From the NCBI RefSeq assembly GCF_019218755.1, contig NZ_JAHUWZ010000012.1, forward strand, positions 1 to 64,000: a stretch of DNA of 64,000 nt, read 5' to 3'. The position numbers and the translations under genes are program-made. Source of the DNA: Acidovorax sp. sif1233. GTDB lineage: Bacteria > Pseudomonadota > Gammaproteobacteria > Burkholderiales > Burkholderiaceae_C. Shown here piece by piece: positions 2,511 to 57,226 of this stretch. Within the stretch, counting starts at the first letter, position 1, and each line of letters starts with the position of its first letter. The notes below the pieces were generated by a model. That model worked only from the letters and a program-made list of their open reading frames with translations. It was not told the origin of the DNA and made no database searches.

Positions 2511-2567
2511 TTGCTATTATTTTTATAGCTATTGGCACTTGATGAGAAAGCGCTTGAAGCCCAAAAG
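2511..2567. repeat. Family 1 palindromic repeat, intergenic copy (benE-kup)
   Basis: Shows the family 1 signature: a TATAGCT-type left end, a core of GCACTT and AAGCGCTT separated by a short loop, then GAAGCCC. It lies between the start of benE and the stop of kup and is clearly more AT-rich than the flanking genes. Ten further copies with the same order of blocks occur in this window. Confidence 0.8.
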
Positions 2568-2579
2568 ACCCCAACCCGC

Positions 2580-4466
2580 TCAAATCTCGATCTTGGATCC
2601 GAGTTCGACGACCGCGTTGTTGGGCAGGTGCAGGAAGTCCGCCGCACCACTGGCGTTGTGGTGCATCTGCGCGAACAGTTTCTCGCGCCAGGGCGCCATG
2701 CCGCTGCCAATGGTGGGGATGACGGTATCGCGCGAGAGGAAGTAGCTGGTGGTCATCGACTCCAGCTCGCAGCCCCGCCCGCGCAGCAGCTCCAGCGCAC
2801 GCGGCACGTCCGGGTCGTTCTTGAAGCCGTAGTGGATCACCACCTGCCAGCAGTCGTGGCCCAGGGACTCCACCTGCAGGCGCTTGTCCAGCCCGATCCA
2901 GGGCGTCTCGTGGTTGTGCACGGTCACGAACAGGTTCTGCTGGTGCAGCACCTTGTTGTGCTTGAGGTTGTGCAACAGCGCATTGGGCACCGCACCGGTC
3001 TCGGCCGTGAGAAACACGGCGGTGCCCTCGACCCGCGTGGGCGGGCTGATGAACACCGACTCCAGGAAGTCCTTGAGGTCGATGGCGTCCGCACGCAGCT
3101 TGTCGTTGAGCAGCCGTCGCCCCTCCTTCCACGTCATCATGAGGGAGAACACGACGCCGCCGATCATCAGCGGGAACCAGCCGCCCTGGAACAGCTTGAG
3201 CAGGTTGGAGGCAAAGAACGCCAGGTCCACCACGAAGAAGCAGCCCGTGGCCGCGATGCACAGCGCCAGCGGGTAGCCCCAGCCGTACCGGATCACGAAG
3301 AAGGTCAGCGTGGTGGTGATCAGCATGTCCAGCGTCACGGCGATGCCGTAGGCGGCCGCCAGGTTGCTGGAGGAGCGGAACATCACCACGGCCAGCACGA
3401 TGGCGGCGAACAGCCCCCAGTTGACCAGCGGCATGTAGATCTGCCCGGTGTCCCGCACGCTGGTGTGCTGGATGTTCAGGCGCGGCAGGTACCCGAGCTG
3501 GATGACCTGCTTGGTCACGCTGAAGGCGCCGGTGATGAGCGCCTGCGATGCGATCACGGTGGCCATGGTGGCCAGAATCACCAGCGGGACCAGCGCCCAG
3601 TCGGGCGCCATCATGTAGAACGGGTTCTTCACGGCCTCGGGCTCGGCCAGCAGCAGCGCGCCCTGGCCGAAGTAGTTGAGCGTGAGCGCGGGCATGGCCA
3701 CGCCGAACCAGGCCATGCGGATGGGGCGCTTGCCAAAGTGGCCCAGGTCGGCGTACAGGGCCTCGGCCCCCGTCACGCACAGCACCACGGCCCCCAGGAT
3801 GATGAAGCTGGTGCCGGGATGGGCCCACATGAAGCCCAGCGCGTGGTGCGGGCTCAGCGCCCAGAGGATCTCGGGATGCCCCACGATGTGCGAGACGCCC
3901 AGCAGCGCAATGGTGATGAACCACACCAGGGTGATGGGCCCGAAAAACTTGCCGATGCCGCTGGTGCCGCGCTTTTGCACGGCAAACAGGCAAAAGAGCA
4001 CGACCAGGGTGATCGGAATCACGTACTGCTTGAAATGCGGCGAGACGACTTCCAGCCCTTCGACGGCCGACAGGACCGAGATGGCGGGCGTGATGACGCC
4101 GTCGCCATAGAAGAGCGAGGTGCCGAAGATGCCCACGGCCAGCAGCACGCCACGCAGCCGGGGCTTGTCCTTGACGGCCTGGGAGGCCAGCGCCAGCATG
4201 GCGATGAGCCCGCCCTCGCCGTGGTTGTCGGCGCGCAGCACCAGCACCACGTACTTCAGCGAAACAATGACGGTGAGCGTCCAGAAGAAGATCGAGAGGA
4301 TGCCGTAGATATTGGCTGGGGAGAACGGCACATGGCCGGACCCGAAGACCTCCTTGACGGCATACAGCACGCTGGTGCCGATATCGCCATACACAACACC
4401 GATGGCGCCCAGCGTAAGCGCTGCGAGCGATGATTTGGAGCTTTGCACTGACCGCACCCGGCACAC
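2580..4466 (-). CDS. kup: Low-affinity potassium uptake protein Kup (Trk/Kup type)
   Basis: Inner-membrane K+/H+ symporter of the KUP/HAK/KT family, 628 residues, the usual length. The N-terminal signature [18 protein letters not shown] is followed by about 12 membrane helices and a hydrophilic cytosolic C-terminal domain of about 170 residues. No ATG precedes the signature. In-frame GTG codons at 4466, 4457 and 4448 are all possible starts and none has a clear Shine-Dalgarno sequence, so the first residues are uncertain. It lies between gshA and benE, and a second potassium system (trkHA) is encoded just upstream. Confidence 0.95.
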
Positions 4467-4700
4467 AGGGGCTGCCGGGTTCCGTTACTTTTGGGAACGC
4501 TATTGTGCGCCTGAGGCAGATCAAGTGCCTGGGGGGAGCTCCCCATGTTGCAACGCAACAACTTGCCCTTGGCAGCCCGGCGCAGACATGGCAGGCCGCG
4601 CGGAATCCCCCGGCGAAACTGGCGCTGCCTGGTCGCAGGGGCGACCCCGCCCCCTCCGGGAGAACACGGAGAAGACACGCCGCTTCCCGGGGGCGCCGTT

Positions 4701-5996
4701 TCAGTCGTACACCTCGGCGTCCGGGTTGGTGGCTTCCAGCTCGTAGCTGGCCGCCAGCATGGCCAGGCGCGCGACCACGCCGTACATGTAAAAGCGGTTG
4801 GGGGCGCTCACGCCAGGGCGCACGCCGGGCTGGGGCATGTGCGTGCTGTGCTCGAACGCGAGCGGCACGAAGCTCGCGCCCGGGGCGTTGAGGTTCTCGT
4901 CCACGCCGCGCTCGGCATGCATGCGGTAGAAGCCGCCCACCACATAGCGGTCCATCATGTAGACCACCGGTTCGGCCACGGCCTCGTGCACGCGCTCCTG
5001 CGTGAGCACGCCTTCCTGGATGATGAGGTCGCTGACCGGCTGGCCGTCCTTGATGATGGCCATCTTGTTCTTGGTCTTGCGGTTCACCGCGTCCAGCTCC
5101 TTGGCGTCGCGCACGGTCATGATGCCCATGCCGTAGGTGCCGTTGTTGGCCTTGACGATGACGAACGGCTTCTCGTTGATGCCGTATTCCTTGTACTTGC
5201 GGCGCACCTTGGTCAGCAGCGCATCCACCGTGGTCTGCAGCTTGTCCATGCCTTTGTCCTCGGCAAAGTCCACGCCGTCGCACTGGCTGTACATGGGGTT
5301 GACGAGCCAGGGGTCGATGCCCAGCATCTTGCCGAAGCGCTTGGCCACCTCTTCATAGTTCTTGAAATGGGTGCTCTTTCGGCGCACGCTCCAGCCCGCA
5401 TGCAGCGGGGGCAGCAGGTACTGCTCGTGGATGTCTTCCAGGATGCCGGGCGGCCCGGCGGAGAGATCATTGTTCAGCAGAATGGTGCAGGGGTCGAAGT
5501 CCTTGAGGCCCAGGCGGCGCTTGGTGCGCACCACGGGCTCCAGCGTCACCGTGTCGCCATTGGGCAGCTCGATGAGCGTGGGCTTCTTGATCTCGGGACT
5601 GATGGAGCCCACGCGCACGTTCAGGCCCGCCATGTTGAAGATGCGCTGCAGCTGCACCACATTGGCCAGGTAGAAGGTGTTGCGCGTGTGGTTTTCCGGA
5701 ATGATCAGCAGGTTGCGCGCCTCGGGGCAGATCTTCTCGATGGCGGCCATGGCGGCCTGCACGGCCAGGGGCAGCATCTCCTTGGTGAGGTTGTTCCAGC
5801 CCCCGGGAAACAGGTTGGTGTCCACGGGCGCGAGCTTGAAGCCCGCATTGCGGATGTCCACCGAGGTATAGAACGGCGGCGTGTGCTCCATCCACTCCAG
5901 CCGGAACCAGCGCTCGATGGCGGGCATCGAGTCGAGAATGCGCTGTTCGAGTTCGTTGATCGGCCCGGTGAGGGCCGTGATGAGATGCGGAACCAT
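4701..5996 (-). CDS. gshA: Glutamate--cysteine ligase (proteobacterial ATP-grasp-like type)
   Basis: Makes gamma-glutamylcysteine, the first step of glutathione synthesis. The 431-residue protein matches the GshA type first described in acidithiobacilli and common in betaproteobacteria, which is unrelated in sequence to E. coli GshA. Recognisable stretches are the start MVPHLITALTGPINELEQ, a central FKNYEEVAKRFG and a C-terminal YGMGIMTVRDAKEL preceded by the lysine-rich VIVKANNG. The ATG at 5996 is the only start that fits the family. Together with gshB it completes the pathway, with kup and benE between them. Confidence 0.92.
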   Translation of the reverse strand: MVPHLITALTGPINELEQRILDSMPAIERWFRLEWMEHTPPFYTSVDIRNAGFKLAPVDTNLFPGGWNNLTKEMLPLAVQAAMAAIEKICPEARNLLIIPENHTRNTFYLANVVQLQRIFNMAGLNVRVGSISPEIKKPTLIELPNGDTVTLEPVVRTKRRLGLKDFDPCTILLNNDLSAGPPGILEDIHEQYLLPPLHAGWSVRRKSTHFKNYEEVAKRFGKMLGIDPWLVNPMYSQCDGVDFAEDKGMDKLQTTVDALLTKVRRKYKEYGINEKPFVIVKANNGTYGMGIMTVRDAKELDAVNRKTKNKMAIIKDGQPVSDLIIQEGVLTQERVHEAVAEPVVYMMDRYVVGGFYRMHAERGVDENLNAPGASFVPLAFEHSTHMPQPGVRPGVSAPNRFYMYGVVARLAMLAASYELEATNPDAEVYD

Positions 5997-6094
5997 GGAA
6001 AGCCCTCGGGAAGCGATTGCGATGAATTGTAGGGAGTTGGGGTCGGGCCGGAAATTCGCAAGCCGCCTGCGGCACGAGCCGTGGCGGGCGCTGG

Positions 6095-7561: not shown

Positions 7562-7629
7562 GACGGGCGTCCTTGGTCCATGGCAGCCGGCATCGCATGC
7601 AGCTGCCGATACTGGCGCAGCCCAGGCGA

Positions 7630-7738
7630 GGGCCGCCGCGCAAGGGCCGCCGCGCCGCAGAGGCGGCGCTTCGCTGGCGTGCGCTGGCGGCGTCCCCCTG
7701 CCCGCAGCGCGAAGCGCTGCGAGAGCGGGGGCTGGGGG
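7630..7738. repeat. Family 2 GC-rich intergenic repeat (trkH-trkA)
   Basis: A mosaic of blocks seen in five other gaps of this window: GCAAGGGCCGCC, CTGGCGGCGTCCCCCT and a late (G)GAAGCGCT-type block ending in a run of G. It lies between the trkA stop and the trkH start. The C-run and G-run can form a stem. Confidence 0.7.
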
Positions 7739-7835
7739 CCGGGGCTCCCAGCGTGCCTGCGCAGGCTGGGACGGCCCCGAAGAGCTGGTGCCTCTGGCAA
7801 CTGCACGGAGGCGCGAATCAACTCAGGGGAGGACA

Positions 7836-9290
7836 TCAAAAAAACGTCGCGCTCACGCGGAAGAGCTTTTCCACGTCGCGCACGAGCCGCTTGTTCGGCA
7901 GGAAGAACACCACGTGGTCGTTGCCCTCGATCACCGTGGAACTGCGCGGGATGATGACCTGCGGCTCGCGCAGATCCCCGGGCGGCGCATCGGGCGAATC
8001 CGGCAGGCCGCGCACGATCAGGCCCATGTGCACATCGCGCGGCAGCGCCAGTTCGCTGACCTTGCGGCCCACCACGCGCGAGCTTTTCCGGTCGCCGCGC
8101 GCCACGATCTCCAGCGCCTCCGCCACGCCCCGGCGCAGGCTGTGCACGGCCTGCACATCCCCCTGGCGCACGTAGGCGAGCAGCTCGCCCAGCATGGCCT
8201 GCGCGGGCGACAGCGCGATGTCGATCTGCGTGCCGTGCATCAGGTCGGCGTAGCTGCGGCGGTTGATGAGGGCGAGCACCCGCCTGGCGCCCATGCGCTT
8301 GGCCAGCAGGCAGGACATGATGTTGTCCTCGTCGTCGTCGGTGAGCGCCAGGAACAGGTCCACCTCCTCAATGCCCTCGTCGCCCAGCAGGTCCTCGTCG
8401 GTGGTGTCGCCCTGCAGCACCAGCACCTCGGAAGGCAGGGCCGAGGCCAGCTCGACGCAGCGGTCGGCGTGGTCCTCGATGATCTTGATGTTGAAGCGCC
8501 CCGGCGCCTGCGCCAGCTGGCGGGCCAGGCGCAGCCCCACCCGGCCGCCGCCGGCGATCATGATGCGGCGCACGGGCTGGGAAGGCTGCGACTGCGGCCG
8601 GTGCAGGGCCGCCAGCACCTTCGCGATGTGCTCCTGCGCGGCCAGCACGAAGACCTCGTCGCCCGGCTCGATGCGGGTGCGCCCGTCGCACGCGACGAAG
8701 CGGTCCGGCTCGTCCGGAAACCGCCGGTAGATGGCCACCATGCGCATGGCCATCTCGGGGTCGCTCTCGCGCAGCTGGCCGATGGTGTGGCCCGCCATGG
8801 GGGCACCCGCACGCGCGCGCACCGACACCAGACAGGCACGCCCCCCCGCGAACTCGCGCACCTGCATGGCCTCGGGGTATTCGATGAGCTTGCCGATGTA
8901 GCGCGTGAGGGATTCTTCGGGGCAGATGATGCGGTCCACCGCAAAGCCCTCAGGGCCGGTCAGCCGCGTGTCCAGGTCAAAGCCGGTGGAGCGCACCCGC
9001 GCGATGCGCTTGGGGATGTTGAACACCAGCTGCGCGATCTTGCAGCACACCAGGTTGGTCTCGTCCTGCGCGGCGCAGGCGATCAGCAGGTCGGTGTCCT
9101 GCGCGCCCGCCTCGGCCAGCACGGCGGGCTCGATGCCGTTGCCCACCACGCCGCGCAGGTCGAAGCGCGACTCCAGGTCGCGCAGGCGCGCGGCGTCCGT
9201 GTCGATCACGGTGATGTCGTTGCGCTCCGACACCAGGCTGTCGGCCACGCTCTGGCCCACGCGGCCCGCCCCGAGGATGATGATTTTCAT
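7836..9290 (-). CDS. trkA: Trk system potassium transporter regulatory subunit TrkA
   Basis: Cytosolic NAD(H)-binding gating subunit that attaches to TrkH. Two RCK_N Rossmann domains are visible through GAGRVGQSVADSL at the N terminus and GGGRVGLRLARQL in the second half, each followed by an RCK_C region. The protein has 484 residues, slightly longer than E. coli TrkA (about 458). The ATG at 9290 gives the canonical start MKIIILGAGRVG. trkH follows in the same direction. Confidence 0.96.
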   Translation of the reverse strand: MKIIILGAGRVGQSVADSLVSERNDITVIDTDAARLRDLESRFDLRGVVGNGIEPAVLAEAGAQDTDLLIACAAQDETNLVCCKIAQLVFNIPKRIARVRSTGFDLDTRLTGPEGFAVDRIICPEESLTRYIGKLIEYPEAMQVREFAGGRACLVSVRARAGAPMAGHTIGQLRESDPEMAMRMVAIYRRFPDEPDRFVACDGRTRIEPGDEVFVLAAQEHIAKVLAALHRPQSQPSQPVRRIMIAGGGRVGLRLARQLAQAPGRFNIKIIEDHADRCVELASALPSEVLVLQGDTTDEDLLGDEGIEEVDLFLALTDDDEDNIMSCLLAKRMGARRVLALINRRSYADLMHGTQIDIALSPAQAMLGELLAYVRQGDVQAVHSLRRGVAEALEIVARGDRKSSRVVGRKVSELALPRDVHMGLIVRGLPDSPDAPPGDLREPQVIIPRSSTVIEGNDHVVFFLPNKRLVRDVEKLFRVSATFF

Positions 9291-9303
9291 GTGGTATGGG
9301 CCG

Positions 9304-9350
9304 TCAGCGCACTACTGGCAAGCGCCACCAGCTATGAAAAATGGAGCAAA
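9304..9350. repeat. Family 1 palindromic repeat, intergenic copy (trkA-proA)
   Basis: Contains AGCGCACTA, then GGCAAGCGCCACCAGCTATG and an A-rich end, the family 1 block order in orientation B. It fills most of the gap between the trkA start and the proA stop and runs up to the proA stop codon. Confidence 0.75.
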
Positions 9351-10631
9351 TCAGGTCCGCACCTCGCCCTCGCCCAGCACCACGTACTTGAGCGAGGTCA
9401 GGCCTTCGAGCCCCACGGGCCCGCGCGCATGGAATTTGTCGGTGCTGATGCCGATCTCGGCGCCCAGCCCGTACTCAAAGCCATCGGCGAACCGCGTGCT
9501 GGTGTTCACCATCACACTGGCGGAATCCACCTCGCGCAGGAACCGCTGGGCATGCACATGGTTGGTGGTGAGGATGGCATCCGTGTGGTGGCTCGAATAC
9601 CGGTTGATGTGGGCGATGGCCTCGTCCACGCCATCCACCACCTTCACGCTGATGATCGGGGCCAGGTACTCCTCGCTCCAGTCCTGCTCGGTGGCGGGCA
9701 CCAGCTGGGCGCCTTGTACCGATTGCAGGATGGCCAGCGCCTGCGGGCAGCCCCGCATCTCCACGCCCTTGGCGGCGTACACGGCGCCTATCTTCGGCAA
9801 GAAGTCGGCCGCCACGCCCCGCGCCACCAGCAGGCCTTCGCTCGCGTTGCAGGGGCTGTACTTGTTCGTCTTGGCGTTGTCGGCCACCTTCACCGCCATG
9901 GCGATGTCGCAGGGGTCGTCCACATAGGTGTGGCAGTTGCCGTCCAGGTGCTTGATGACGGGCACCTTGGCGTCGCGGCTGATGCGCTCGATCAGGCCCT
10001 TGCCGCCACGCGGAATGATCACGTCCACGAACTGCGGCATGGCGATGAGCTGGCCCACGGCCTCGCGGTCGGTGGTCTGCACCAGCTGCACCGCGTCCTG
10101 CGGCAGGCCGGCCTCGGCCAGCGCCTGCTGCACCAGCTTGGCCAGAGCCTTGTTGGAATCGATGGCCTCGGAACCGCCGCGCAGGATGCAGGCGTTGCCG
10201 CTCTTGATGGACAGGCTCGCGGCCTCGATGGTCACGTTGGGCCGGCTCTCGTAGATCATGCCGAACACGCCGATCGGCACACGCATCTGGCCCACGCGGA
10301 TGCCGCTCCCCTGCTGCTTCATGCCCAGGATCTCGCCAATGATGTCGGGCATGGCGGCCAGCTGCTCGCAGCCTTCGGCGCAGGTCTCCAGCACCTTGGG
10401 GCCGAGCTTCAGGCGGTCCACCATGGGCTCGGCCAGGCCGGCGGTGCGGGCGCGGTCCAGGTCGCGGGCGTTGTCGATCTGCAGCGCCTCCACGTTCTCG
10501 CGCAGCAGGCGGGCCAGGGCCTTGAGTGCTTTGTTTTTGATAGCTGCTGGCGCTTTGGCCATCAGCGCAGAGGCCGTTTTGGCCTGCTGGCCGAGGGTGT
10601 GCGTGTATTCAGCGACGTTGAGGGCGTTCAT
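9351..10631 (-). CDS. proA: Gamma-glutamyl phosphate reductase
   Basis: NADPH-dependent second enzyme of proline synthesis; it reduces gamma-glutamyl phosphate to glutamate semialdehyde. At 426 residues it has the usual length. The signature [16 protein letters not shown] and the catalytic cysteine region [10 protein letters not shown] are present. Residues 17-34 ([18 protein letters not shown]) are encoded by a family 1 repeat, so part of the N-terminal helix derives from the mobile repeat while the frame is kept. The start [10 protein letters not shown] fits the family. proB is not adjacent. Confidence 0.95.
10531..10584. repeat. Family 1 repeat inside proA
   Basis: The plus strand reads TTTTTGATAGCTGCTGGCGC, a short loop, then CAGCGCAGAGGCCGTTTTGG, an almost ideal family 1 copy. 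It encodes ProA residues 17-34 in frame. In the sense strand the codon phase equals that of the copies in purK and exbB, giving the shared pattern A-L-x-x-x-A-x-A-A. Confidence 0.85.
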
Positions 10632-11003: not shown

Positions 11004-11013
11004 CCATCACTAC

Positions 11014-11067: not shown

Positions 11068-11087
11068 GGAACCAGGCGCAGCGCGGC

Positions 11088-17358: not shown

Positions 17359-18042
17359 TCAGGGCCGAGCACCGGCGGACGGCGCCGTGTCGATCAGCAG
17401 TTCGCGCAGGTCGCGCGCGAAGCCTTCCAGGTCGGCCTCGATGCGGCCGATCAGGCGGCCGAACACGTTGTAGGCCAGCACGGCCGGGATCGCCACCGCC
17501 AGCCCGGCCGCCGTCATGACCAGCGCCTCGCCCACGGGGCCGGAGACGCGGTCGATGGTGATCTGCCCCGCGCCCGCCATGGCCGTGAGCGCATGGTAGA
17601 TGCCCCAGACGGTGCCCAGCAGCCCCACGAACGGTGCCGTGGAGCCCACCGTGGCCAGCAGCACCTGGCCAAACTGCAGGCGCCCGAGCACGCCGTGCAA
17701 GGCGTCGCGCAGCACGCGGGTGAGCCGCTGCGACAGGCTGCCTGCCGCGGCCAGCGTGGGCTGGCCGGTGGGACCGGCATGATTTGCTATTGAATTCGCA
17801 GCAACAACCAAAGGCAGGACAAGCGCAGCGCGGTCAAAAGATTGCAGGCGCTGTGCAGCAACGTCCATGGACGGCGCCTGCCAGAACGCCGCCGTGCAGC
17901 GGGCCACGTCGGCGCTGGCCTGGCGCATGAGCCGCAGCTTCCAGACGATGACCACCCAGCTTGCCACGGACATGGCCAGGAGCACCAGCGCGGCACCCTG
18001 CGTGACGGCGTCGCCCTGGCGCCACCAGTGGAGAGCGTCCAT
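17359..18042 (-). CDS. exbB: MotA/TolQ/ExbB proton channel family protein
   Basis: A 227-residue inner-membrane proton channel with three predicted membrane segments. The signature is in the third quarter: GSTAPFVGLLGTVWGIYHAL, then GEALVMTAAGLAVAIPAVLAY. It pairs with exbD downstream. Residues 68-87 (SFDRAALVLPLVVAANSIAN) are encoded by a family 1 repeat read in the same phase as the purK copy; the two peptides share the pattern A-L-x-x-x-x-V-x-A-A. This lies in the cytosolic loop before the second membrane segment. Start MDALHWWRQGDA. Confidence 0.88.
   Translation of the reverse strand: MDALHWWRQGDAVTQGAALVLLAMSVASWVVIVWKLRLMRQASADVARCTAAFWQAPSMDVAAQRLQSFDRAALVLPLVVAANSIANHAGPTGQPTLAAAGSLSQRLTRVLRDALHGVLGRLQFGQVLLATVGSTAPFVGLLGTVWGIYHALTAMAGAGQITIDRVSGPVGEALVMTAAGLAVAIPAVLAYNVFGRLIGRIEADLEGFARDLRELLIDTAPSAGARP
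17781..17841. repeat. Family 1 repeat inside exbB (diverged)
   Basis: The plus strand reads GATTTGCTATTGAATTCGCA, then a more variable middle, CAAGCGCAGCGCGGTCAAAA. The outer blocks and spacing fit family 1, while the central palindrome is degraded. Local A+T content is well above the rest of exbB. It encodes residues 68-87 without a stop or frameshift. Confidence 0.65.
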
Positions 18043-19631: not shown

Positions 19632-20048
19632 ATGACCAACATCGACGAACTCAAAAGCACGGGACTCAAGGCCACGCTGCCCCGCCTGAAGATTCTGGAA
19701 ATCTTCCAGAAGGGCGCGCAGCGCCACATGACGGCCGAGGACGTGTTTCGCGTGCTGCTGGAGGAGCGCTCGGACATCGGCCTGGCCACGGTCTACCGCG
19801 TGCTCACGCAGTTCGAGCAGGCCAGCATCCTGATCCGCAGCAATTTCGAGAGCGGCAAGGCGGTGTACGAGCTCAACGAAGGCCAGCACCACGACCACTT
19901 CGTGTGCACCTCGTGCGGCAAGGTGGAAGAGTTCTACGACCCCGAGATCGAAAAACGCCAGCAGGCCGTGGCCAAGGCCAAGGGCTGGCTGGTGCAGGAC
20001 CACACCATGGCGCTGTACGGGCAGTGCGCCGACTGCGCTAAGAAATGA
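19632..20048 (+). CDS. fur: Ferric uptake regulator Fur
   Basis: Iron-sensing dimeric repressor. The 138 residues have an N-terminal winged helix ([15 protein letters not shown]), the metal-binding stretch [20 protein letters not shown] and a second cysteine pair, CADCAKK, at the C terminus. All canonical ligands are present. The ATG at 19632 is the only sensible start. It diverges from bamE and is followed at once by a family 2 repeat that contains a stem of CCCCCT and AGGGGG, which may end transcription. Confidence 0.97.
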
Positions 20049-20124
20049 CTCCCCCCTGAGCCACCTTCGGCGTCTTCCCCCTAAGGGGGACGCTCCCGGC
20101 GCGGCGGGGCGGCCCTTGCGCGGG
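20049..20124. repeat. Family 2 GC-rich intergenic repeat (fur-hprK)
   Basis: Starts with CCCCCCTGAG directly after the fur stop, continues with CTTCCCCCTAAGGGGGACGC and ends with GCGGGGCGGCCCTTGCGCGG. It lies between two convergent genes and carries a short perfect C-run/G-run stem. Confidence 0.8.
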
Positions 20125-20167
20125 AGCCCTGGTATGGGCCGCGCCAGTTTCGGTGGCCTGAGCGCCG

Positions 20168-24800: not shown

Positions 24801-24857
24801 TTCTACCCATCGCACGATGCCGTCGCAACGGGCACGGTACAGGCCAGCGGCCGCCGT

Positions 24858-24925
24858 GCAAGGGCCGCCCCGCCGCACTGGCGGCGTCCCCCTTCCAGGG
24901 GGAAGGCGCAAGGCGCCTCAGGGGG
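24858..24925. repeat. Family 2 GC-rich intergenic repeat (purC-ybbN)
   Basis: GCAAGGGCCGCCCC, CTGGCGGCGTCCCCCTTCC, AGGGGGAAGGCGC and CTCAGGGGG follow in order, one of the cleanest copies. It lies between the purC terminator and the ybbN stop and has a perfect CCCCCT-AGGGGG stem. Confidence 0.85.
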
Positions 24926-24934
24926 TAGCCTGTT

Positions 24935-25843
24935 CTAGCTCAGCACCACGCTCGACAGCCGGCGCCGGTAGGTCGCCACCACCGGGTCGTCGGGCGGGAT
25001 CTGGCCGTCGGCCACTTTCGCCTTGGGGGGTTCGATGATCTCGAGGATGGCCACGTAGGTCTTGCGGGCGATCTCTTCGCCCCAGGCCTTGTCGCGCATG
25101 AGGATTTCGAGCAGTTCGTCCATCGCGTCCGTCCAGCGCTGGCCGGCCAAGAGCCAGCGGGCGCGGGCGTAGCGGGTATCGAAATCGCGCTTGTTGGCGG
25201 CAATCTTGGCATCGAAATCGGCCTCAGCGCTTTCTCCATATGCGCCAGAAGCTACGAAATCAATAGCATCCATCCAGACTTTCAGCGCGCCGAGCTTGCG
25301 CGAGCCCGCGGCCTTGGCGATCACGGGGGCGAACGCGACCTTGGCATCGTCCTCGCGGTGCAGCTGCAGCAGGAGCTTGACGTAGTCGAAGCGCGCATCG
25401 TCGTTGGAGGGATCGGTCACCACCGCATGCTGCAGCTTCTCCAGCGCGGTGCTGGTGTCACCCTCGGCCAGGGCGTCCTGGGCTTCTTCCTCCTCCATTT
25501 CGGCCACCATTTCCTCGGCGGTGGGCACGTGCTTGTCGAGGAAGGCGCGCACCTGGCCCTCGGGCAGGGCCCCCATGAAGCCGTCCACGGGCTGGCCGTT
25601 CATGAGCAGCACACAGGTGGGGATGCTGCGGATGCCGAACATGCCCGCCAGCTGCTGCTCCTGGTCCGAGTCGATCTTGACGAGCTTGAAGCGGCCGGCG
25701 TATTCGGTCTCGAGCTTTTCCAGCACCGGCCCCAGCGACTTGCAGGGGCCGCACCAGGGCGCCCAGAAGTCCACCAGCACGGGCACGGTCATCGAGGCGG
25801 CAACGACCTCGGCTTCAAAGTTCTCTACGGTGACGTCAATCAT
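24935..25843 (-). CDS. ybbN: Thioredoxin-fold chaperone with TPR-like C-terminal region (YbbN/CnoX type)
   Basis: Residues 1-110 form a thioredoxin domain with an intact WCGPC site at 30-34. The remaining two thirds is a helical TPR-like region, as in E. coli YbbN/CnoX, a redox chaperone linked to GroEL. At 302 residues it is of family length. Residues 193-210 (around [13 protein letters not shown]) are encoded by a family 1 repeat, here in the orientation opposite to that in the other genes. The gene lies antisense between purC and purE. Start [13 protein letters not shown] at 25843. Confidence 0.9.
25215..25267. repeat. Family 1 repeat inside ybbN
   Basis: The plus strand reads AAATCGGCCTCAGCGCTTTC, a short loop, GCGCCAGAAGCTACGAAATC and AATAGC. 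The block order matches the intergenic copies. In the ybbN sense strand it runs opposite to the copies in proA, purK, exbB, mtnN and murU, and it is still read through without a stop. Confidence 0.75.
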
Positions 25844-26002: not shown

Positions 26003-26497
26003 ATGAAACCCATCCAGATCGGCGTGGTCATGGGTTCCAGCAGCGACTGGGACACCATGCAGCATGCAGTGCAGATTCTTGAGCAATTCGGCATCCCGCA
26101 CGAGGCCCGCGTGGTTTCGGCCCACCGCATGCCCGACGACATGTTCGCCTACGCCGAGGCGGCCGCCGGCCGGGGCCTGAAGGCCATCATTGCGGGTGCC
26201 GGTGGCGCCGCCCATCTGCCCGGCATGATTGCCGCCAAGACCACCGTGCCCGTGCTGGGCGTGCCCGTGGCCAGTCGCCACCTGCAGGGTGTGGATTCGC
26301 TGCACAGCATCGTGCAGATGCCCAAGGGCATCCCCGTGGCCACGTTCGCCATCGGCACGGCGGGCGCTGCCAATGCCGCCCTGTTTGCCGTCGCCCTGCT
26401 GGCCAACGAAAGCCCCGAACTGCGCCAGCGGCTCGAAGCCTTCCGCGCCGAGCAGACCGAGGTGGCCCGCAACATGACCTTGCCGCCCGCCGCATGA
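26003..26497 (+). CDS. purE: N5-carboxyaminoimidazole ribonucleotide mutase
   Basis: Class I PurE, which converts N5-CAIR (made by PurK) to CAIR. The 164 residues contain [18 protein letters not shown] and the loop [12 protein letters not shown]. The ATG at 26003 ([12 protein letters not shown]) is clear. The stop overlaps the purK start by 4 bp (ATGA), so the two enzymes of this coupled step are translationally linked. Confidence 0.97.
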
Positions 26498-27663
26498 GCG
26501 CCAGCAACAAACCCCTCCTGCCGGGATCGACGCTGGGCGTGCTCGGCGGCGGCCAGCTGGGCCGCATGTTTGTGCACCAGGCCCAGGCCATGGGCTATTT
26601 CACGGCCGTGCTCGACGCCGACCCCACCAGCCCCGCCGGGCTGGTGAGCCACCACCACATCCAGACGGGCTATGAAGATCCGCAGGGCCTGGCCGAGCTG
26701 GCCCGCCTGGCCGATGCGGTGACCACCGAGTTCGAAAACGTGCCCGCGGCCGCGCTGGCCGCCCTGGCAGCGCAGCGCCCCGTGTCGCCCGCCGCCAGCG
26801 CCGTGTCGGTGGCGCAGGACCGTGCACGGGAAAAAGCCCATTTCGTGGCCTGCGGCGTGCCCTGCGCGCCGTATGCGGTGATCGAAACGGCTGAGCAACT
26901 GGCTGCGGTTTCTTCTGATCTGTTGCCAGGCATCCTGAAAACGGCTCGCATGGGCTACGACGGCAAAGGCCAGGTGCGAGTGAAGACCGCTGCCGAACTC
27001 GCCGCTGCGTGGGACGCGGTCGGCAAGGTGCCCTGCGTGCTGGAGAAGATGCTGCCGCTGGCACTGGAATGCTCGGTGATCGTGGCGCGCGGCGCCGACG
27101 GGGCCACCGTGCACCTGCCCGTGCAGCGCAACCTGCACCGCGACGGCATCCTGGCCGTGACGGAGGTTTTTGAACAAAATCTGCCTCCAGCGCTTATTCA
27201 GCAAGCGGTAGCAGCTGCAATTTCGATAGCAAACGGCCTGCAGTACGTCGGCGTGCTCTGCGTGGAGTTCTTCGTGCTGCAGGACGGCGGCCTGGTGGTC
27301 AACGAGATCGCCCCGCGCCCGCACAACAGCGGCCACTACAGCCAGAACGCCTGCGACGTGTCGCAGTTCGAGCTGCAGGTGCGCACCATGGCCCGCCTGC
27401 CGCTCACGCAGCCGCGCCAGCACAGCCCCGCCGTGATGCTCAACCTGCTGGGCGATCTGTGGTTTGCGCAGGGCGGCACGGAGCAGACGCCCCCCTGGGC
27501 CGAGGTGCTGGCCCTGCCCGGCACGCACCTGCACCTGTATGGCAAGCGCGACGCCAAGCGCGGCCGCAAGATGGGCCACCTCAACATCACCGCCGCCACC
27601 CCCGACGCCGCGCGGGCCACCGCCCTGCGGGCTGCGGCCCTCCTGGGCATCGCGCCGTTCTGA
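26494..27663 (+). CDS. purK: N5-carboxyaminoimidazole ribonucleotide synthase
   Basis: ATP-grasp enzyme that carboxylates AIR with bicarbonate. The 389 residues carry [12 protein letters not shown] at the N terminus and [12 protein letters not shown] in the C-terminal half. Residues about 225-247 (including [18 protein letters not shown]) are encoded by a family 1 repeat. A lower-GC stretch around 26885-26945 is also out of character with the flanks but has no repeat signature. The gene is coupled to purE and followed by the sua5 gene two bases after its stop. Confidence 0.96.
27165..27233. repeat. Family 1 repeat inside purK
   Basis: Reads CCTCCAGCGCTTATTCAGC, AAGCGGTAGCAGCTGCAATT, then TCGATAGCAAA, a clear copy flanked by a T- and A-rich left end. 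It keeps the purK frame and adds an alanine-rich helix-like peptide between strands of the ATP-grasp domain. Confidence 0.85.
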
Positions 27664-37467: not shown

Positions 37468-37543
37468 CCCCCTGTGGCGCTGCGCGCCTTCCCCCCCGAG
37501 GGGGGACGCCTCCGGTGGACCGGCGAAGCCGGATCCACGGTGG
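37468..37543. repeat. Family 2 GC-rich intergenic repeat after corA
   Basis: Begins CCCCCTGTGGCG directly after the corA stop, then GCGCGCCTTCCCCCCCGAGG, GGGGACGCC and GGACCGGCGAAGCCGG. The C-run/G-run stem could end corA transcription. Confidence 0.75.
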
Positions 37544-37705: not shown

Positions 37706-37771
37706 TATGATTTAAATTGGCCTCTAGCGCTTATTCACCAAGCGCTAGCAGCTATCAATTTCATAGTTTTT
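37706..37771. repeat. Family 1 repeat at the 3' end of mtnN
   Basis: The best-preserved copy: TTGGCCTCTAGCGCTTATTC, ACCAAGCGCTAGCAGCTATC, then AATTTCATAGTTTTTG. It overlaps the mtnN stop codon at 37761-37763 and so supplies the last four or so codons of that gene. Confidence 0.9.
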
Positions 37772-38528
37772 GCAAAAACGCCAGCACCATGTGTTCGGCG
37801 TAGCGGCTGGCCACGGTCGTGACGAAGAGGGGGAAGTCCGCGTGGGCGGTGTCGTCGGCACGGTCGGAGATGGTGCGCACGGCGGCGAAGGGGATGCCGT
37901 AGTCGTGGCACACCTGGGCGACGGCGGCGCCTTCCATTTCCACGGCCAGCACGTCGTGGCCGGCGTCGCGCAACGTGGTGCGCAGACGGTGGGCTTCATC
38001 GGCTGCGGAAACAAAGCGGTCCCCGCTGGCCACCAGGCCGTGGTGCGCGCGGTGCAAGACACCCTCCAACGCATCTGTTGCGTCAGTTTTCAAGCCAAAT
38101 TGGCCGCTGGCCCTTGATACACAAGCGCTGGCCGCTTCCAGAAGCAGAGCAGACAATACAGTGTCGCATGCCAGGCGGCTGCGCGTGTAACCCGGGATCT
38201 CCCAGCGGGGGAACAGGGGCGAGGCGTCCATGTCGTGCTGGAGGTAGTCCTGCGCCACCACCACGTCGCCCACGTTCACGCCATCGCCCACACCGCCCGC
38301 CACGCCGGTGAAGACGATGCGCGCCACGCCGAAGCGCTCGATGAGCGCCGTGGCCGTGGTGGCCGCCGCCACCTTGCCGATGCCCGAGAGCGCCAGCACC
38401 ACTGGCCGGCCGCACAGGTCGCCGCGCCAGAAGAAACGGCCGGCATGCACCAGGCGCTGGGGGTGCGACAGGTGCGGGACCAGCGAGCTTTGCTCTTCGG
38501 GCAAGGCGCTGAGGATGGCGGTGGTCAT
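37761..38528 (-). CDS. mtnN: 5'-methylthioadenosine/S-adenosylhomocysteine nucleosidase
   Basis: Cleaves adenine from MTA, SAH and related nucleosides. The 255 residues contain the N-terminal acid SALPEEQ, the core VAVEMEGAAVAQVC-type stretch (AVEMEGAAVAQVC) and RTISDRADD with the catalytic aspartate. It is about 20 residues longer than E. coli MTAN. Residues about 129-148 (LLEAASACVSRASGQFGLK) are encoded by a family 1 repeat, which explains the extra length. The stop codon lies inside a second copy. Start MTTAILSALPEE at 38528. Confidence 0.92.
   Translation of the reverse strand: MTTAILSALPEEQSSLVPHLSHPQRLVHAGRFFWRGDLCGRPVVLALSGIGKVAAATTATALIERFGVARIVFTGVAGGVGDGVNVGDVVVAQDYLQHDMDASPLFPRWEIPGYTRSRLACDTVLSALLLEAASACVSRASGQFGLKTDATDALEGVLHRAHHGLVASGDRFVSAADEAHRLRTTLRDAGHDVLAVEMEGAAVAQVCHDYGIPFAAVRTISDRADDTAHADFPLFVTTVASRYAEHMVLAFLQKL
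38086..38144. repeat. Family 1 repeat inside mtnN
   Basis: The plus strand reads TTTTCAAGCCAAATTGGCCG, CTGGCCCTTGATACACAAGC, then GCTGGCCGCTTCCAG. It is read in mtnN in a different phase from the purK and proA copies. Confidence 0.75.
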
Positions 38529-50148: not shown

Positions 50149-50167
50149 GGGCTTGTCTCTTTCTGTG

Positions 50168-50212: not shown

Positions 50213-50227
50213 GATTACCAGCCGCCC

Positions 50228-51715: not shown

Positions 51716-51826
51716 GGCGGAGGGTCTCCTCGGGAGGCGATGGTTCGCGGGTGCCCGGTCGGCGCCCCTGGAAAACCAGCCACTCCAGCGTAGCCAGGCA
51801 CGTGGCCCGGCGGAAGACGCAGCATT

Positions 51827-51843
51827 TGCATTCCATACATGCA
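51827..51843. promoter_or_regulatory. Candidate LysR-type binding site
   Basis: TGCAT-N7-ATGCA inverted repeat. It contains two overlapping T-N11-A matches (51827/51839 and 51831/51843), the LysR-family core pattern, in the divergent gap between the MFS and LysR genes. Confidence 0.5.
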
Positions 51844-51871
51844 CCAGACGCCATGCCACGGACCGGCGTGC

Positions 51872-51877
51872 TATGGT
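51872..51877 (+). promoter_or_regulatory. -10-like hexamer 6 nt before the LysR start
   Basis: TATGGT, six bases, ATG, the same arrangement as upstream of the PAP2 gene. Confidence 0.45.
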
Positions 51878-51883
51878 CCCGCC

Positions 51884-52780: not shown

Positions 52781-52810
52781 CGCGCGCCCCCGCACGGCCG
52801 CACGCAGCGG

Positions 52811-53599: not shown

Positions 53600-53621
53600 G
53601 GACCCTGGCCATCCCTCGGCC

Positions 53622-55019
53622 TCAGCCGCGCATCAGCGCTTCGATCTCGTCGGCCTTCACCGGCACGCCGCGCGTGATCAGCTCGCAGCCCGTCTCGGTG
53701 ACGATGGCGTCGTCCTCGATGCGGATGCCGATGTGGTGGAACTGCTCGGGCACCCCGTCGGCCGGCCGCACGTAGATGCCGGGCTCGATGGTGAGCACCA
53801 TGCCCGGGCGCAGCACGCGGCTGGGGCGGTTGGTGATGGTCTCGCCCGACAGCGGGTCCTTGCGCTCGCTCACCGCCCCGACCTCATCGGGTTCCACGTA
53901 GCTGCCGCAGTCATGCACGTCCATGCCCAGCCAGTGGCCCGTGCGGTGCATGTAGAACTGGAAGTAGGCGCGCGTGTCGATCACGTCCTGCGCGGTGCCC
54001 ACCTTGTTCCTGTCGAGCAGGCCCAGGTCCAGCATGCCCTGCGCCAGCACGGCCACGGTGGCGTCGTGCGGGTCGTTGAAGCGCGCGCCGGCCTTGGTGG
54101 CCGCCACCGCCGCGTCCTGGCTGGCCAGCACCAGGTCGTACAGCGCGCGCTGCGGCCCGGTGAAGCGGCCGTTGGCCGGGAAGGTGCGGGTGATGTCGCT
54201 GGCGTAGCCGTCAAGCTCGCAGCCGGCGTCGATGAGCACCAGCTCGCCGTCGCGCACCGGGGCGGCGTCCGCGCGGTAGTGCAGCACGCAGGCGTTGGCC
54301 CCGGCCGCCACGATGGAGCTGTAGGCCGGGTACTGCGAGCCCTCGTCGCGAAACGCGTGCAGCAGCTCGGCATCCAGGTGGTACTCGCGCACGTCCTGGC
54401 CGGCGCGCAGCATGCGGGCCGAGCGCTGCATGGCGCGGATGTGCGCCCTGGCGCTGATGTCGCTGGCGCGGCGCATGATGTCCTGCTCGTGCGCGTCCTT
54501 GATGAGCCGCATCTCGTCGAGCAGCGTGCACACATCGTTCTGCTCCGCCGGGCACAGCGCGCCGTAGCGCACGCGCGCGCGCACCGCGTTCAGCCACCCT
54601 TCCACCCGCGCTGCCAGGCCGCTGTGGATGGCAAACGGGTACCACACGCGGTGGCGGTTCTCCAGCAGGCGGGGCAGCTTGGCGTCCAGCTCGGCGATGG
54701 AATGGGCGGCTTGCACGCCCAGCGCCCCGGGCGCCGCAGCAGGGCCCAGCCGGTAGCCGTCCCAGATCTCGCGCTCCAGGTCCTTGGGCTGGCAGAACAG
54801 GGTGCTGCACCCGTCCTGCGCGACCACAAGGCATGCCCCCGGCTCGATGAAGCCGGTCAGGTAGTAGAAGTAGCTGTCGTGGCGGAACAGGAAGTCGGTG
54901 TCCCGGTTGCGCGGGCGCTCCGGCGCCGTGGGAATGATGGCGATGCCCCCCGCGCCCAGCTGGGCAGCAAGCCGCGCGCGGCGTTGGGCGTAGATGGAGG
55001 CAGGCACGGTGGTGTTCAT
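53622..55019 (-). CDS. pepP: Xaa-Pro aminopeptidase (aminopeptidase P)
   Basis: Removes N-terminal residues ahead of proline. The 465 residues comprise an AMP_N domain (start YAQRRARLAAQLG) and a creatinase-fold catalytic domain with metal ligands in DAGCELDGYASDITRTFP, HRTGHWLGMDVHDCG, TIEPGIY and RIEDDAIVTETG, all intact. Its ATG overlaps the murU stop by 4 bp. Confidence 0.95.
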   Translation of the reverse strand: MNTTVPASIYAQRRARLAAQLGAGGIAIIPTAPERPRNRDTDFLFRHDSYFYYLTGFIEPGACLVVAQDGCSTLFCQPKDLEREIWDGYRLGPAAAPGALGVQAAHSIAELDAKLPRLLENRHRVWYPFAIHSGLAARVEGWLNAVRARVRYGALCPAEQNDVCTLLDEMRLIKDAHEQDIMRRASDISARAHIRAMQRSARMLRAGQDVREYHLDAELLHAFRDEGSQYPAYSSIVAAGANACVLHYRADAAPVRDGELVLIDAGCELDGYASDITRTFPANGRFTGPQRALYDLVLASQDAAVAATKAGARFNDPHDATVAVLAQGMLDLGLLDRNKVGTAQDVIDTRAYFQFYMHRTGHWLGMDVHDCGSYVEPDEVGAVSERKDPLSGETITNRPSRVLRPGMVLTIEPGIYVRPADGVPEQFHHIGIRIEDDAIVTETGCELITRGVPVKADEIEALMRG

Positions 55020-55816
55020 GGACGGGCAGCAGAGAGAGAATTGAGTTCAGCCAGGCGCTCGGGGGTCCCCACATCGGTCCAGCGTCCGGTGTAGAGCTGT
55101 GCGCTGACCCGGCCATTGTCCATCGCGCGGCGAAGCAGCGGCGCCAGCGGGGCTTTGATGCCATCCGGGTTGCCGGCCGGAATGTCGCACCAGGGCGCCG
55201 CGAACAGCCCGGCGCGCAGCAGGGCGATGGTGCTGTAGGTGTAGCGCGGCGCGGGGTCGGCGGCGGGCAGGTTCAGTGCCAATCCGTCCGCCGACAGCCC
55301 GAAGTCGCCGCGCAGGTTGTGGGCCGGGTTGGGCACCAGCCACAGGTGGGCCAGGTGGCCGCTGGCCTCGAAGGCCGACACGGCGGCGCTGCCGAACACG
55401 AAGTCGGGCGCAAACACATCGCCCGCCGCCAGCCAGAACACGGGGCCCAACCGGGGCAGGGCGCGGGCGATGCCGCCGGCGGTTTCCAGTGCGCCGCCAA
55501 AGTCCACGCCTTCGTGCGAGTATGAAATGGATAGCTGCTTGCGCTTGTCCACCCGGCGCTGGAGGCCAAAAACATCGGAAAAGTGGTGGCTGATCTGCCC
55601 ACCCAGCCATGCGGTGTTGATCACCACCTGCTCCACACCCGCTTCCTGCAGCGCCGCCAGGTGCCACTGCAGCAGCGGCTGGCCCTGCACCTGCAGCAGG
55701 GGTTTGGGGATGGTGTCGGTCAGCGGGCGCATGCGCTCGCCACGGCCTGCGGCCAGCAGCATGGCGGGGACCTGCCCCCCGGTGGCGGCGGCCGGCGCCG
55801 CGGCACCCGCGCTCAC
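55016..55816 (-). CDS. murU: N-acetylmuramate alpha-1-phosphate uridylyltransferase-like nucleotidyltransferase
   Basis: Sugar-phosphate nucleotidyltransferase of 266 residues; MurU works in peptidoglycan recycling that bypasses de novo UDP-MurNAc synthesis. The signature AMLLAAGRGERMRPLTDTIP is followed by PKPLLQVQGQPLLQWHL and LAAGDVFAPDF. I chose the GTG at 55816, whose GTGA overlaps the speD stop; an ATG at 55762 is the alternative. Residues 82-98 (VFGLQRRVDKRKQLSIS) are encoded by a family 1 repeat. The usual partner kinase gene amgK is not adjacent; speD is there instead. Confidence 0.85.
   Translation of the reverse strand: MSAGAAAPAAATGGQVPAMLLAAGRGERMRPLTDTIPKPLLQVQGQPLLQWHLAALQEAGVEQVVINTAWLGGQISHHFSDVFGLQRRVDKRKQLSISYSHEGVDFGGALETAGGIARALPRLGPVFWLAAGDVFAPDFVFGSAAVSAFEASGHLAHLWLVPNPAHNLRGDFGLSADGLALNLPAADPAPRYTYSTIALLRAGLFAAPWCDIPAGNPDGIKAPLAPLLRRAMDNGRVSAQLYTGRWTDVGTPERLAELNSLSAARP
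55521..55575. repeat. Family 1 repeat inside murU
   Basis: The plus strand reads GAAATGGATAGCTGCTTGCG, CTTGTCCACCCGGCGCTGG, then AGGCCAAAAACAT. In the murU sense strand it is read in a third phase, giving a basic peptide (QRRVDKRKQ) instead of the alanine-rich ones in proA and purK. Confidence 0.85.
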
Positions 55817-56202
55817 GCCACGGCCTCCTGCAGGGCGCCCCGCTGCAGCGCGTGGCGCTGCACGGCCGTGGGCGCGAACAGGGCCACGAGCGCCTCCAGG
55901 AGCGCGCGTGCCTTGCCCGAATGGTCCGCACCGAAGTTGCACACATAGACGTCGAGCGTGACGGCCTGCTGTTCGGGCCAGGTGTGCACGCACAGGTGCG
56001 ACTCGGCCAGCAGCACGGTGGCGGTCACCCCGCCAGGTCCGTGGGCGGTGGCGGGAAATCCGTGGAACAGCTGGCCCACGGGCTGCAGCCCGGCGGCGCG
56101 CACGGCGTCGCCGCAGGCCTGGCCCAGGGCGGCGGCATCGAGCAGCCACACGGGGGCGCAGCGGCAGCCATGGAGATCGGCGGTGAGGTGCAGTCCTTGC
56201 AT
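55813..56202 (-). CDS. speD: S-adenosylmethionine decarboxylase proenzyme (SpeD, class 1B-like)
   Basis: Pyruvoyl enzyme that supplies decarboxylated SAM for spermidine synthesis. The 129 residues contain the self-cleavage site ESHLCVHTWPE with serine 68, histidine 73 and, 15 residues later, cysteine 88, matching the catalytic Ser63/His68/Cys83 spacing of Thermotoga AdoMetDC. It lacks speE beside it and is instead coupled to murU and pepP. I chose the ATG at 56202 (MQGLHLTADLHGC); TACAGT lies 7 nt upstream. Confidence 0.88.
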   Translation of the reverse strand: MQGLHLTADLHGCRCAPVWLLDAAALGQACGDAVRAAGLQPVGQLFHGFPATAHGPGGVTATVLLAESHLCVHTWPEQQAVTLDVYVCNFGADHSGKARALLEALVALFAPTAVQRHALQRGALQEAVA

Positions 56203-56209
56203 GGCCCGC

Positions 56210-56215
56210 ACTGTA
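56210..56215 (-). promoter_or_regulatory. -10-like hexamer 7 nt before speD start
   Basis: The minus strand reads TACAGT, seven bases, ATG, with no ribosome site. It would start the speD-murU-pepP-CPBP transcript without a leader. Confidence 0.45.
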
Positions 56216-56522
56216 GTGCATCACGGGGGCGGGCGGCGCCGGGCTTTCGGGCCCACATCGCGGCCGGGCTGGCGCCACCCCGGCCGGTCCCGGCGGTCCA
56301 GCGCCCAGGCGGTGGTCGCGCGCGCGGCGCCACGGACTATCCCGCCGGGGTAGGGCGATGCGCCGGGCGCTCGGGTAGCCTGCGCGGCCCATGACAGCCC
56401 CTGCCCCGCAACCCCGGCCCGGCCACCCGAAGCCGCTTGTGCCAACTATTACCGGATCACGCCTGCGCGCGATCGTGGGCCGCCGTTTCGCGGGCACCGA
56501 CACCCCCCATAGTGTCGCCACC
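56216..56522. other. Divergent gap between speD and the LuxR-type regulator
   Basis: About 310 very GC-rich bases. A CATAGT hexamer at 56508-56513, nine bases before the regulator ATG, is the only promoter-like signal. amgK, expected next to murU, is not present here, and no repeat of either family is seen. Confidence 0.5.
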
Positions 56523-57152
56523 ATGAAGATCATCCTTGCCGACGACCACACGCTGTTCCGCGAAGGACTGCAGCACCTGCTGTCGGCACTGGACCCTCAG
56601 GCCCAGGTGCTGGAGGCGAACGACTACGCCAGCGCGGCGTCGCTGGTGGTGGAGCATCCCGATGCCGCCCTCGCCCTGGTGGACCTGGACATGCCGGGCC
56701 GCGACGCCAGCGCGCCGGGTGGCGGCGGCCTGGAACGCCTGCTGGCGCTGGCGCCCGGCGTGCCGGTGGTGGTGCTCTCCGCCCGCGAAGACCCCGCCGT
56801 GGTCCGCGACGTGCTGGACGCGGGCGCCATGGGGTTCATCTCCAAGCGCGAACGCGCCGCCGTGATGCTCAACGCCCTGCATCTGGTGCTGGCCGGCGGC
56901 ATCTACCTGCCGCCCATGCTCCTGGGCACGGCGGCCCGGGCGTCCGCCTGCGCCGCCCTGACCCCCCGGCAGGTCGAGGTGTTGCACGGCCTGGCGAACG
57001 GGCATGCCAACAAGGTGATCGCGCGCCAGCTCGGCATGAGCGAGGCGACCGTGAAGGCGCACACGGGTGCCATCTTCCGCAGCCTGGAGGTCAGCAACCG
57101 CGTGCAGGCCGTGCGCATGGCCCGGCGGCTGGGCCTGCTGGCGCCCGACTGA
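56523..57152 (+). CDS. NarL/LuxR-family response regulator, orphan
   Basis: 209 residues. The receiver is MKIILADDHTLFREGLQ with phospho-aspartate 54 in ALVDLDMPG. The C-terminal LuxR helix-turn-helix reads LTPRQVEVLHGLANGHANKV and continues MSEATVKAHTGAIFRSLEV. An Asp/Gly-rich insert (DASAPGGGG) follows the phosphorylation site. I chose the ATG at 56523 over the frame opening at 56391. No kinase gene is adjacent. Confidence 0.9.
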   Translation: MKIILADDHTLFREGLQHLLSALDPQAQVLEANDYASAASLVVEHPDAALALVDLDMPGRDASAPGGGGLERLLALAPGVPVVVLSAREDPAVVRDVLDAGAMGFISKRERAAVMLNALHLVLAGGIYLPPMLLGTAARASACAALTPRQVEVLHGLANGHANKVIARQLGMSEATVKAHTGAIFRSLEVSNRVQAVRMARRLGLLAPD

Positions 57153-57164
57153 GCCCAAGGAAGC

Positions 57165-57226
57165 TCCTGATTTGATAGCTGCCAGCGCTTTATAGACAAG
57201 CGCTTGTGCCCTGTTTGATTCAAAAT
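57165..57226. repeat. Family 1 repeat, intergenic copy before tkt
   Basis: Reads CTGATTTGATAGCTGCCAGC, GCTTTATAGACAAGCGCTTG, then TGCCCTGTTTGATTCAAAAT. It lies just after the orphan regulator in the 317-bp gap before tkt. The rest of that gap is GC-rich without other features except the promoter at 57424. Confidence 0.9.

Follow-up and report, generated by a model that had tools for sequence, protein, structure and literature searches.

A two-dyad DNA motif in core-gene codons of Comamonadaceae that may be an uptake signal

Tags for self-recognition in DNA uptake have been described for two bacterial families, as the uptake signal sequences (USS) of Pasteurellaceae and the DNA uptake sequences (DUS) of Neisseriaceae, and USS arise by substitution, not by insertion (PMC1626085, PMC7811141). 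In 2017, two statistical motif pairs were listed, GCTTAT(N)5AAGCG in Acidovorax ebreus and ATAGCT(N)22CAAAAG in Polaromonas naphthalenivorans; the first has 114 copies, of which 5 lie in genes, the second 125, of which 18 do, and both are mostly intergenic (PMC5217627). The accessible sections of that paper term them potential novel motifs and give no full element, in-gene evolution or mechanism beyond arguing against transcription initiation. Here we describe a repeat of ∼64 bp from a 64,000-nt stretch of Acidovorax sp. sif1233 (contig NZ_JAHUWZ010000012.1, positions 1 to 64,000; the window). The motif pairs of 2017 are most likely parts of this repeat, as judged from their letters only; the A. 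ebreus pair fits letter for letter within AGCGCTTATCCATCAAGCGCT. The initial annotation of the window knew of no earlier description of such a system. The motif pairs had in fact been listed, although the open-licence PubMed Central literature, as far as its text was accessible, contains no account of the full element, its evolution in genes or its mechanism.

To characterize the repeat, we trained a covariance model, R1, on an ungapped alignment of 22 copies with an exact core, all from the source genome (5.76 Mb; G000) but outside the window. Relatives are labelled with G-numbers and fetched loci with L-numbers. The element comprises a dyad, GCTAT-N7-ATAGC, a second dyad, AGCGCTT-N7-AAGCGCT, and then GAGGCC, plus AT-rich patches, with the approximate consensus TGCTAT-N7-ATAGCTGCC-AGCGCTT-N7-AAGCGCT-GGAGGCCAATTT-NN-CTC-N-AAA. 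The block order proposed in the initial annotation was thus confirmed by a model built from copies outside the window. The blocks it described also hold, but not its length, as the element is extended on the left by the dyad GCTAT-N7-ATAGC. In an unfiltered scan of the window, R1 recovered nine of the eleven copies that had been proposed there at E < 1e-5; the murU copy was marginal and the exbB copy was not significant (Table 1). The core loop measured 7 bases in all 50 of the AGCGCTT-N{3,12}-AAGCGCT matches listed.

Placement and variation were studied in 87 copies from fetched stretches of five element-rich genomes; nine copies whose length differs from 69 bases were excluded from the analysis of variation, leaving 78. 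The least variable letters were GCGC in both core arms and CT/AG of the left dyad, and the consensus was nearly identical for intergenic and in-gene copies. Because the cores of the R1 training alignment are exact in all copies, that alignment is uninformative on core pairing. In the 78 ungapped copies, compensatory changes were not in excess: 21 of 51 double-changed dyad pairs were Watson-Crick pairs, as compared to 28.6 of 50 in shuffles. The dyads appear to be kept as sequence, not as hairpin. At positions 32-38 of the 69-base model, the core loop read GATGGAT in 15 copies, its reverse complement in 12 and other letters in 51, with the flanks in one orientation.

The repeat is abundant. The pattern AGCGCTT-N{3,12}-AAGCGCT occurs 82 times in the source genome versus once for the reversed pattern, so that the copy number is above the chance level that the initial annotation had raised as a concern. 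At least 150 copies, training copies included, were found at E ≤ 1.3e-7, and 19 copies of at least 20 bits in 164 kb, a density of approximately one per 8.6 kb, extrapolate to ∼670 copies in the genome. All 24 genomes of the genus set matched R1 at E ≤ 0.01, most with at least 127 matches; the element-poor members were G001, with three weak matches (best E 0.005), and G004, with six (best E 1.6e-12), and 235 kb of sequence from these two contained zero copies of at least 20 bits. In the same family, 71 of 200 genomes, representing 56 of 141 sampled genera, matched at E ≤ 0.001, while R1 matches were found in 0 of 16 genomes from other families. The core dyad with an N7 loop and 0, 1 or 2 mismatches occurred 13, 27 and 26 times in 764 kb of element-rich sequence, against 0, 0 and 1 for the reversed control; in the 235 kb of element-poor sequence, the corresponding numbers were 0, 0 and 5 against 0, 0 and 1. 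Matches to a 66-nt consensus were found in 9 of 72,556 plasmid records and 0 of 50,697 phage records, counts that are uninformative because, at the same score, element-rich chromosomes yield just 0-2.5 copies in every 100 kb. In six of the plasmid records, which come from enterics and Acinetobacter, the match to the repeat spans 38-40 nt, and in four it lies beneath a gene annotated DUF1010.

To follow individual copies through relatives, an orthologous locus was scored positive at R1 E ≤ 0.01. The purK site was positive in 21 of 23 same-genus loci, G004 being negative and G001 carrying a relict (16.7 bits, E 0.05). In other genera, it was positive in 17 of 20 element-rich genomes and in none of the 10 element-free genomes that yielded the locus (13 searched). 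A named collection gave 20 positives among 80 loci, including Acidovorax (which also supplied the nearest loci, at 92-93% identity), Giesbergeria, Simplicispira, Comamonas, Rhodoferax and Polaromonas. At least 24 state changes at this site were needed on a quick tree of PurK (132 sequences, 58 of them from carriers); the tree was made with the element segment removed and L168 omitted, and 38 of its 126 inner branches were well supported. The proA site was positive in 13 of 19 element-rich genomes plus G042 and in 0 of 10 poor or element-free ones; by eye, its codons were element-like in 17 of the 19 other element-rich genomes, with length unchanged. Overall, at the PurK, ProA, FolP and LpxB sites, carriers have AT-rich, element-matching codons and element-free relatives have ordinary GC-rich codons. 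States are graded in LeuS, where inspection by eye found ordinary sequence in G003, G021 and G004, some element letters in G000 and most of them in G006 and G020; the R1 threshold was passed in G020 only.

The imprint on codons was seen in the G+C content of third codon positions (GC3). In 21 genomes of the genus, the GC3 of the purK segment averaged 0.32 versus 0.87 outside, and none of 216 overlapping control windows fell below 0.70; for SrkA the values were 0.42 and 0.88. GC3 was lower inside than outside in all 29 in-gene copies of the sample (15 gene families; mean 0.42 versus 0.86). In G064, which was classed as element-free, the purK segment remained AT-rich at third positions (GC3 0.35), with a faint relict of the element at E 0.049. 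These data strongly suggest that the copies are maintained at the DNA level. The argument rests on the kept composition and the match to the consensus, because conservation itself was not raised, as described below.

The initial annotation had likened the in-gene copies to the Rickettsia palindromic elements (RPEs), that is, to a selfish insertion that adds peptide segments. In PurK, ProA, FolP and LpxB, which keep their length, this did not survive comparison. These four of ten host proteins aligned gapless with distant solved homologues, and selfish insertion was ruled out for them. Comparison with element-poor G004 or G001 showed equal segment lengths in PurK, ProA, FolP, the TrmH-type methylase, LpxB and LeuS; for YbbN, the lengths were identical in G001, and the G004 segment had one residue fewer. 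The PurK segment comprised exactly 23 residues in 79 of the 80 named loci, with or without the element. The same alignments would reveal an insertion, because they detected one in PurK of G005 and G011 (loci L042 and L043), where 20-21 residues of a different, GC-rich sequence are inserted in frame. The latter is the kind of event that the initial annotation had in mind. It had also held that the same residue positions in distant orthologues would speak against insertion; such positions are present for PurK, ProA, FolP and LpxB, whereas MurU, SrkA and MtnN differ in length. We are confident that the copies in the best-tested genes are not insertions.

With respect to genes, as called by a home-made gene finder, 29 of the 87 copies were within genes, 35 were intergenic and 23 lay at gene edges, in sequence with a coding fraction of 0.83. 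Orthologous copies in several genomes were counted separately, so that the 29 in-gene copies, 16 antisense and 13 sense, represent 15 gene families and are not all independent. The element prefers non-coding DNA and uses both orientations. One frame holds 12 of the 16 antisense copies and one frame 10 of the 13 sense copies; the suggestion that the element is neutral in nearly any frame is thus not borne out, as 22 of 29 in-gene copies are confined to two of the six frames. Each of the two favoured frames contains a single stop in the consensus, but stops alone do not explain the choice, because another sense frame has equally few.

Our preferred, if tentative, explanation is that the ∼64 bp element is a genome-wide DNA recognition site, recognised as sequence and resembling an uptake signal. 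Copies would be gained and kept by substitution, better-matching DNA being preferentially handled by a cellular machine. The most likely machine would be the DNA-uptake apparatus of natural transformation: uptake with homologous recombination would drive matches up, as modelled for the USS of Pasteurellaceae and the DUS of Neisseriaceae, and copies would decay where uptake pressure stops. Uptake is preferred over another DNA-binding machine because the copies evolve analogously to uptake signals, and on this analogy we regard it as a possible cause of their maintenance, short of an even chance. That this is a recognised site made largely by substitution is far better supported than the identity of the machine that reads it. 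The fullest form of the proposal, that Comamonadaceae possess a third, independently evolved uptake signal, a long two-dyad motif that is written into the codons of purK, proA and other core genes and kept through many genera with repeated losses or gains, is put forward with slightly more reserve still.

Several observations weigh against this explanation. Identity at four-fold degenerate third bases was not raised inside copies (0.743 versus 0.711 in PurK; 0.651 versus 0.715 in SrkA). The element-free genomes are mostly more distant, so that phylogeny is a confounder of the counts, which were not corrected for it. The coefficient of variation of copy spacing did not differ from random in five stretches, albeit in small samples of 6-21 copies each, and depletion from plasmids and phages could not be demonstrated. 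Spacers with a copy were longer, by a median of 76 bp in 21 comparisons and 54 bp in 13, though these comparisons are non-independent and subject to a selection effect; intergenic copies may therefore include insertions. Length differences from distant solved homologues were seen in six of ten host proteins. The element is far longer and sparser than USS or DUS, and no receptor for it was identified.

The distribution of competence genes adds to these points. Intact comEC was lacking, through absence or splitting of the gene, in 4 of 26 low-copy genomes (G004, G055, G075 and G081), 4 of 66 rich ones (G042, in which it is split, and the fragmented or incomplete assemblies of G002, G019 and G201) and none of the 16 that are element-free (Fisher P = 0.22). 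Low-copy genomes were those with at most seven family-search matches, plus G001 and G004, a division chosen after the counts were known. Element-poor G001 has comEC and dprA, as do all 16 element-free genomes tested, and dprA, present in 44 of 44 genomes, does not discriminate. A link between competence genes and the element is not established. In G042, a single-contig genome, the comEC match is in three pieces, the purK copy is erased (GC3 1.00) and 100 kb around purK gave 5 hits of at most 37.7 bits; three genomes with unbroken comEC gave 13, 13 and 16 hits per 100 kb (best 54.5, 75.4 and 55.9 bits). Set against this, the proA match of G042 stops at residue 334 of 426, and at least 25 matches are found genome-wide (best E 6.0e-15). 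Because the proA match is also cut short, the splitting of comEC may be an artefact of assembly indels, and with good copies remaining elsewhere we discounted G042 as support for uptake. The breaks, at C1:1836740-1837544 and C1:3631300-3632301 (comEC and proA), represent either real decay or assembly indels.

The main alternative, which we consider somewhat less likely, is that the element is a binding site for a chromosomal protein, as yet hypothetical, that acts in nucleoid organisation, segregation, replication or recombination, the site being selected in place at the DNA level. Such a protein would account for in-gene copies without a change in length, dyads without covariation, the use of both strands and a consensus that extends across genera, and the weakness of the competence link is in its favour. 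However, no candidate protein was found, the spacing is random, and hundreds of copies of very variable match quality with patchy loss would be unusual for an essential architectural site.

A selfish palindromic element of the RPE type or a miniature inverted-repeat transposable element, inserting in frame into genes and spacers, is improbable. It would explain the longer spacers and a G004 spacer that is 72-87 bp shorter than its counterpart with a copy, and some of the in-gene copies invite it. Within its segment, MurU is 8 residues longer than solved homologue 4y7t. MtnN is ∼20 residues longer than solved 3eei, with several gaps, although its segment is gapless in G003, G021 and G004, an 8-residue gap lying just beside it. 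SrkA is ∼10 residues longer than its solved homologue; G004 is without 10 of its residues and seven genomes of other families are without 8, G001 being of full length. The remaining differences from solved homologues were small gaps in a poor alignment for YbbN and a few residues in the TrmH-type methylase and LeuS. In addition, for six of the 15 host gene families, including those of two strong copies (66.8 and 60.2 bits; G006|0 86630 and G021|2 23262, at C1:86630 and C1:423262), the fetched stretches supplied no orthologue. By contrast, none of the ten host proteins compared with solved homologues contained a clean insertion of 21-23 residues, the gapless proteins keep their length in alignments that did detect the unrelated PurK insertion, and no target-site duplication was seen by eye at the 10 window copies with counterparts or in seven spacers, divergence limiting the test at intergenic sites. 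In the same gap test, by which USS were shown not to be insertions, gaps occurred in 24% of alignments (Redfield et al., PMC1626085). The gapped proportion is higher here, so that insertion or indel-prone loops may have contributed to some copies.

Ectopic gene conversion or template switching, by which existing copies would overwrite weakly similar stretches at equal length, is also doubtful. It would be consistent with replacement at equal length, with the two orientations of the core loop, and with the intergenic 9282 site, where the copies of three species differ much and yet are all consensus-like. The in-gene copies, however, mix element-like letters with residues of the host, and the graded states of LeuS, judged by eye, also speak against it.

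Still less probable is an element that acts in RNA, as a terminator, attenuator or processed hairpin. The dyads can form hairpins, and the motif of A. ebreus and P. naphthalenivorans often lies between convergent genes and near gene ends (PMC5217627). Compensatory pairs are nonetheless not in excess, in-gene copies are sense and antisense alike, and the window contained no Rfam family at gathering score.

Mobilisation as a repetitive extragenic palindromic (REP) sequence by a REP-associated tyrosine transposase (RAYT; Y1_Tnp) has very little to recommend it: at least one RAYT-like gene is present in 23 of 24 genus genomes (none was seen in G018, whose assembly is 82% complete) and in G020 and G010 a copy follows directly downstream, but the best-tested in-gene copies are not insertions, and RAYT was rejected as a general carrier because copies were found in just 2 of 13 fetched RAYT neighbourhoods and element-poor G001 also has the gene. 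The RAYT-like gene of G000 (C11:463445-463726; L099) usually occurs once per genome and is followed by a similar spacer in element-rich and element-poor genomes.

The copies in the window are listed in Table 1. The host genes proA (aldehyde dehydrogenase family), exbB, ybbN (a YbbN-type TPR domain), purK and mtnN that had been named in the initial annotation were supported by Pfam, and murU and ybbN by a search of solved structures. The copy at 9282 has counterparts of differing sequence at the corresponding position of G006 and G003. Letters similar to those at the exbB site are present in G006, G003 and G020 and absent in G021 and G004, and the ybbN site is element-like in G006, G020 and, partly, G003, though not in G001, G004 or G021. 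The window also contains GC-rich inverted repeats at 20041-20128 / 24849-24936, 37468-37530 and 7606-7658; the spacer after 20044, which holds one of these, has similar sequence in G004, G020 and G021.

Table 1. Copies of the repeat in the window, with R1 scores
Positions	Strand	Location	R1 score	Remarks
2510..2578	+	intergenic	46.2 bits, E 2e-11	diverged counterparts in G006 and G003
9282..9350	-	between the proA stop and the start of a TrkA-domain gene, 9 bp into the latter	36.5 bits	
10525..10592	+	within proA (9351-10631, -)	28.4 bits	
11006..11074	+	intergenic	57.0 bits	corresponding G004 spacer 72-87 bp shorter
17783..17842	+	within exbB (17359-18042, -)	8.4 bits, E 4.1	possible weak copy, not significant
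25202..25270	-	within ybbN (24935-25843, -)	29.3 bits	
27165..27233	-	within purK (26494-27663, +)	59.1 bits	
37702..37770	-	at the mtnN stop codon, 10 bp overlap	72.8 bits	
38085..38153	-	within mtnN (37761-38528, -)	33.1 bits	
55516..55584	+	within murU (55016-55816, -)	17.8 bits, E 0.006	marginal; counterparts in G003 and G021
57160..57228	+	intergenic	59.1 bits	no counterpart obtained in aligned relatives

The repeat is real, and as a probable family-level DNA tag with an effect on core-gene codons it is more surprising than an RPE-like insertion would have been. In-frame repeats within genes need not be insertions. If the uptake explanation is true, the element would be a third case of an uptake tag, in a large environmental family and with a motif several times longer, and would provide an independent test of molecular drive; it would also imply a DNA receptor that is yet to be described. 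Should some other machine be responsible, a DNA site that shapes synonymous codons of purK and proA across genera still needs explaining.

Among known systems, RPEs resemble the element in being a palindromic family found in frame within unrelated genes (PMC10969869). They differ in their length of ∼150 bp and in altering the products of the genes into which they integrate (PMC10969869), whereas the best-tested host proteins of the element keep their length. The beta-proteobacterial repeat element (BRE) is likewise a dispersed repeat of Betaproteobacteria, including Comamonadaceae, with some copies in coding sequences; as described, it is set apart by its length of ∼90 bp, its average of 69% GC in Bordetella, its copy number of at most 29 and its tandem arrays at some loci (PMC3110155). 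USS and DUS have a core of ∼10 bp plus flanks and occur approximately once per kb, as compared to ∼64 bp with two dyads, once per 8.6 kb in G000, in another family. Their spacing is somewhat more regular than random, which that of the element is not, and, unlike USS and DUS cores (PMC1626085), the perfect dyads of the element are not commoner than single-mismatch ones (13 versus 27). The right arm, ACAAGCGCT, is one letter off the Apl-type USS ACAAGCGGT, possibly by chance. Like USS, the element has AT-rich patches beside its core. It also shares with USS and DUS a strong over-representation, a sharp consensus and many chromosomal copies in one family, on both strands, enriched outside genes with many inside (PMC1626085, PMC7811141).

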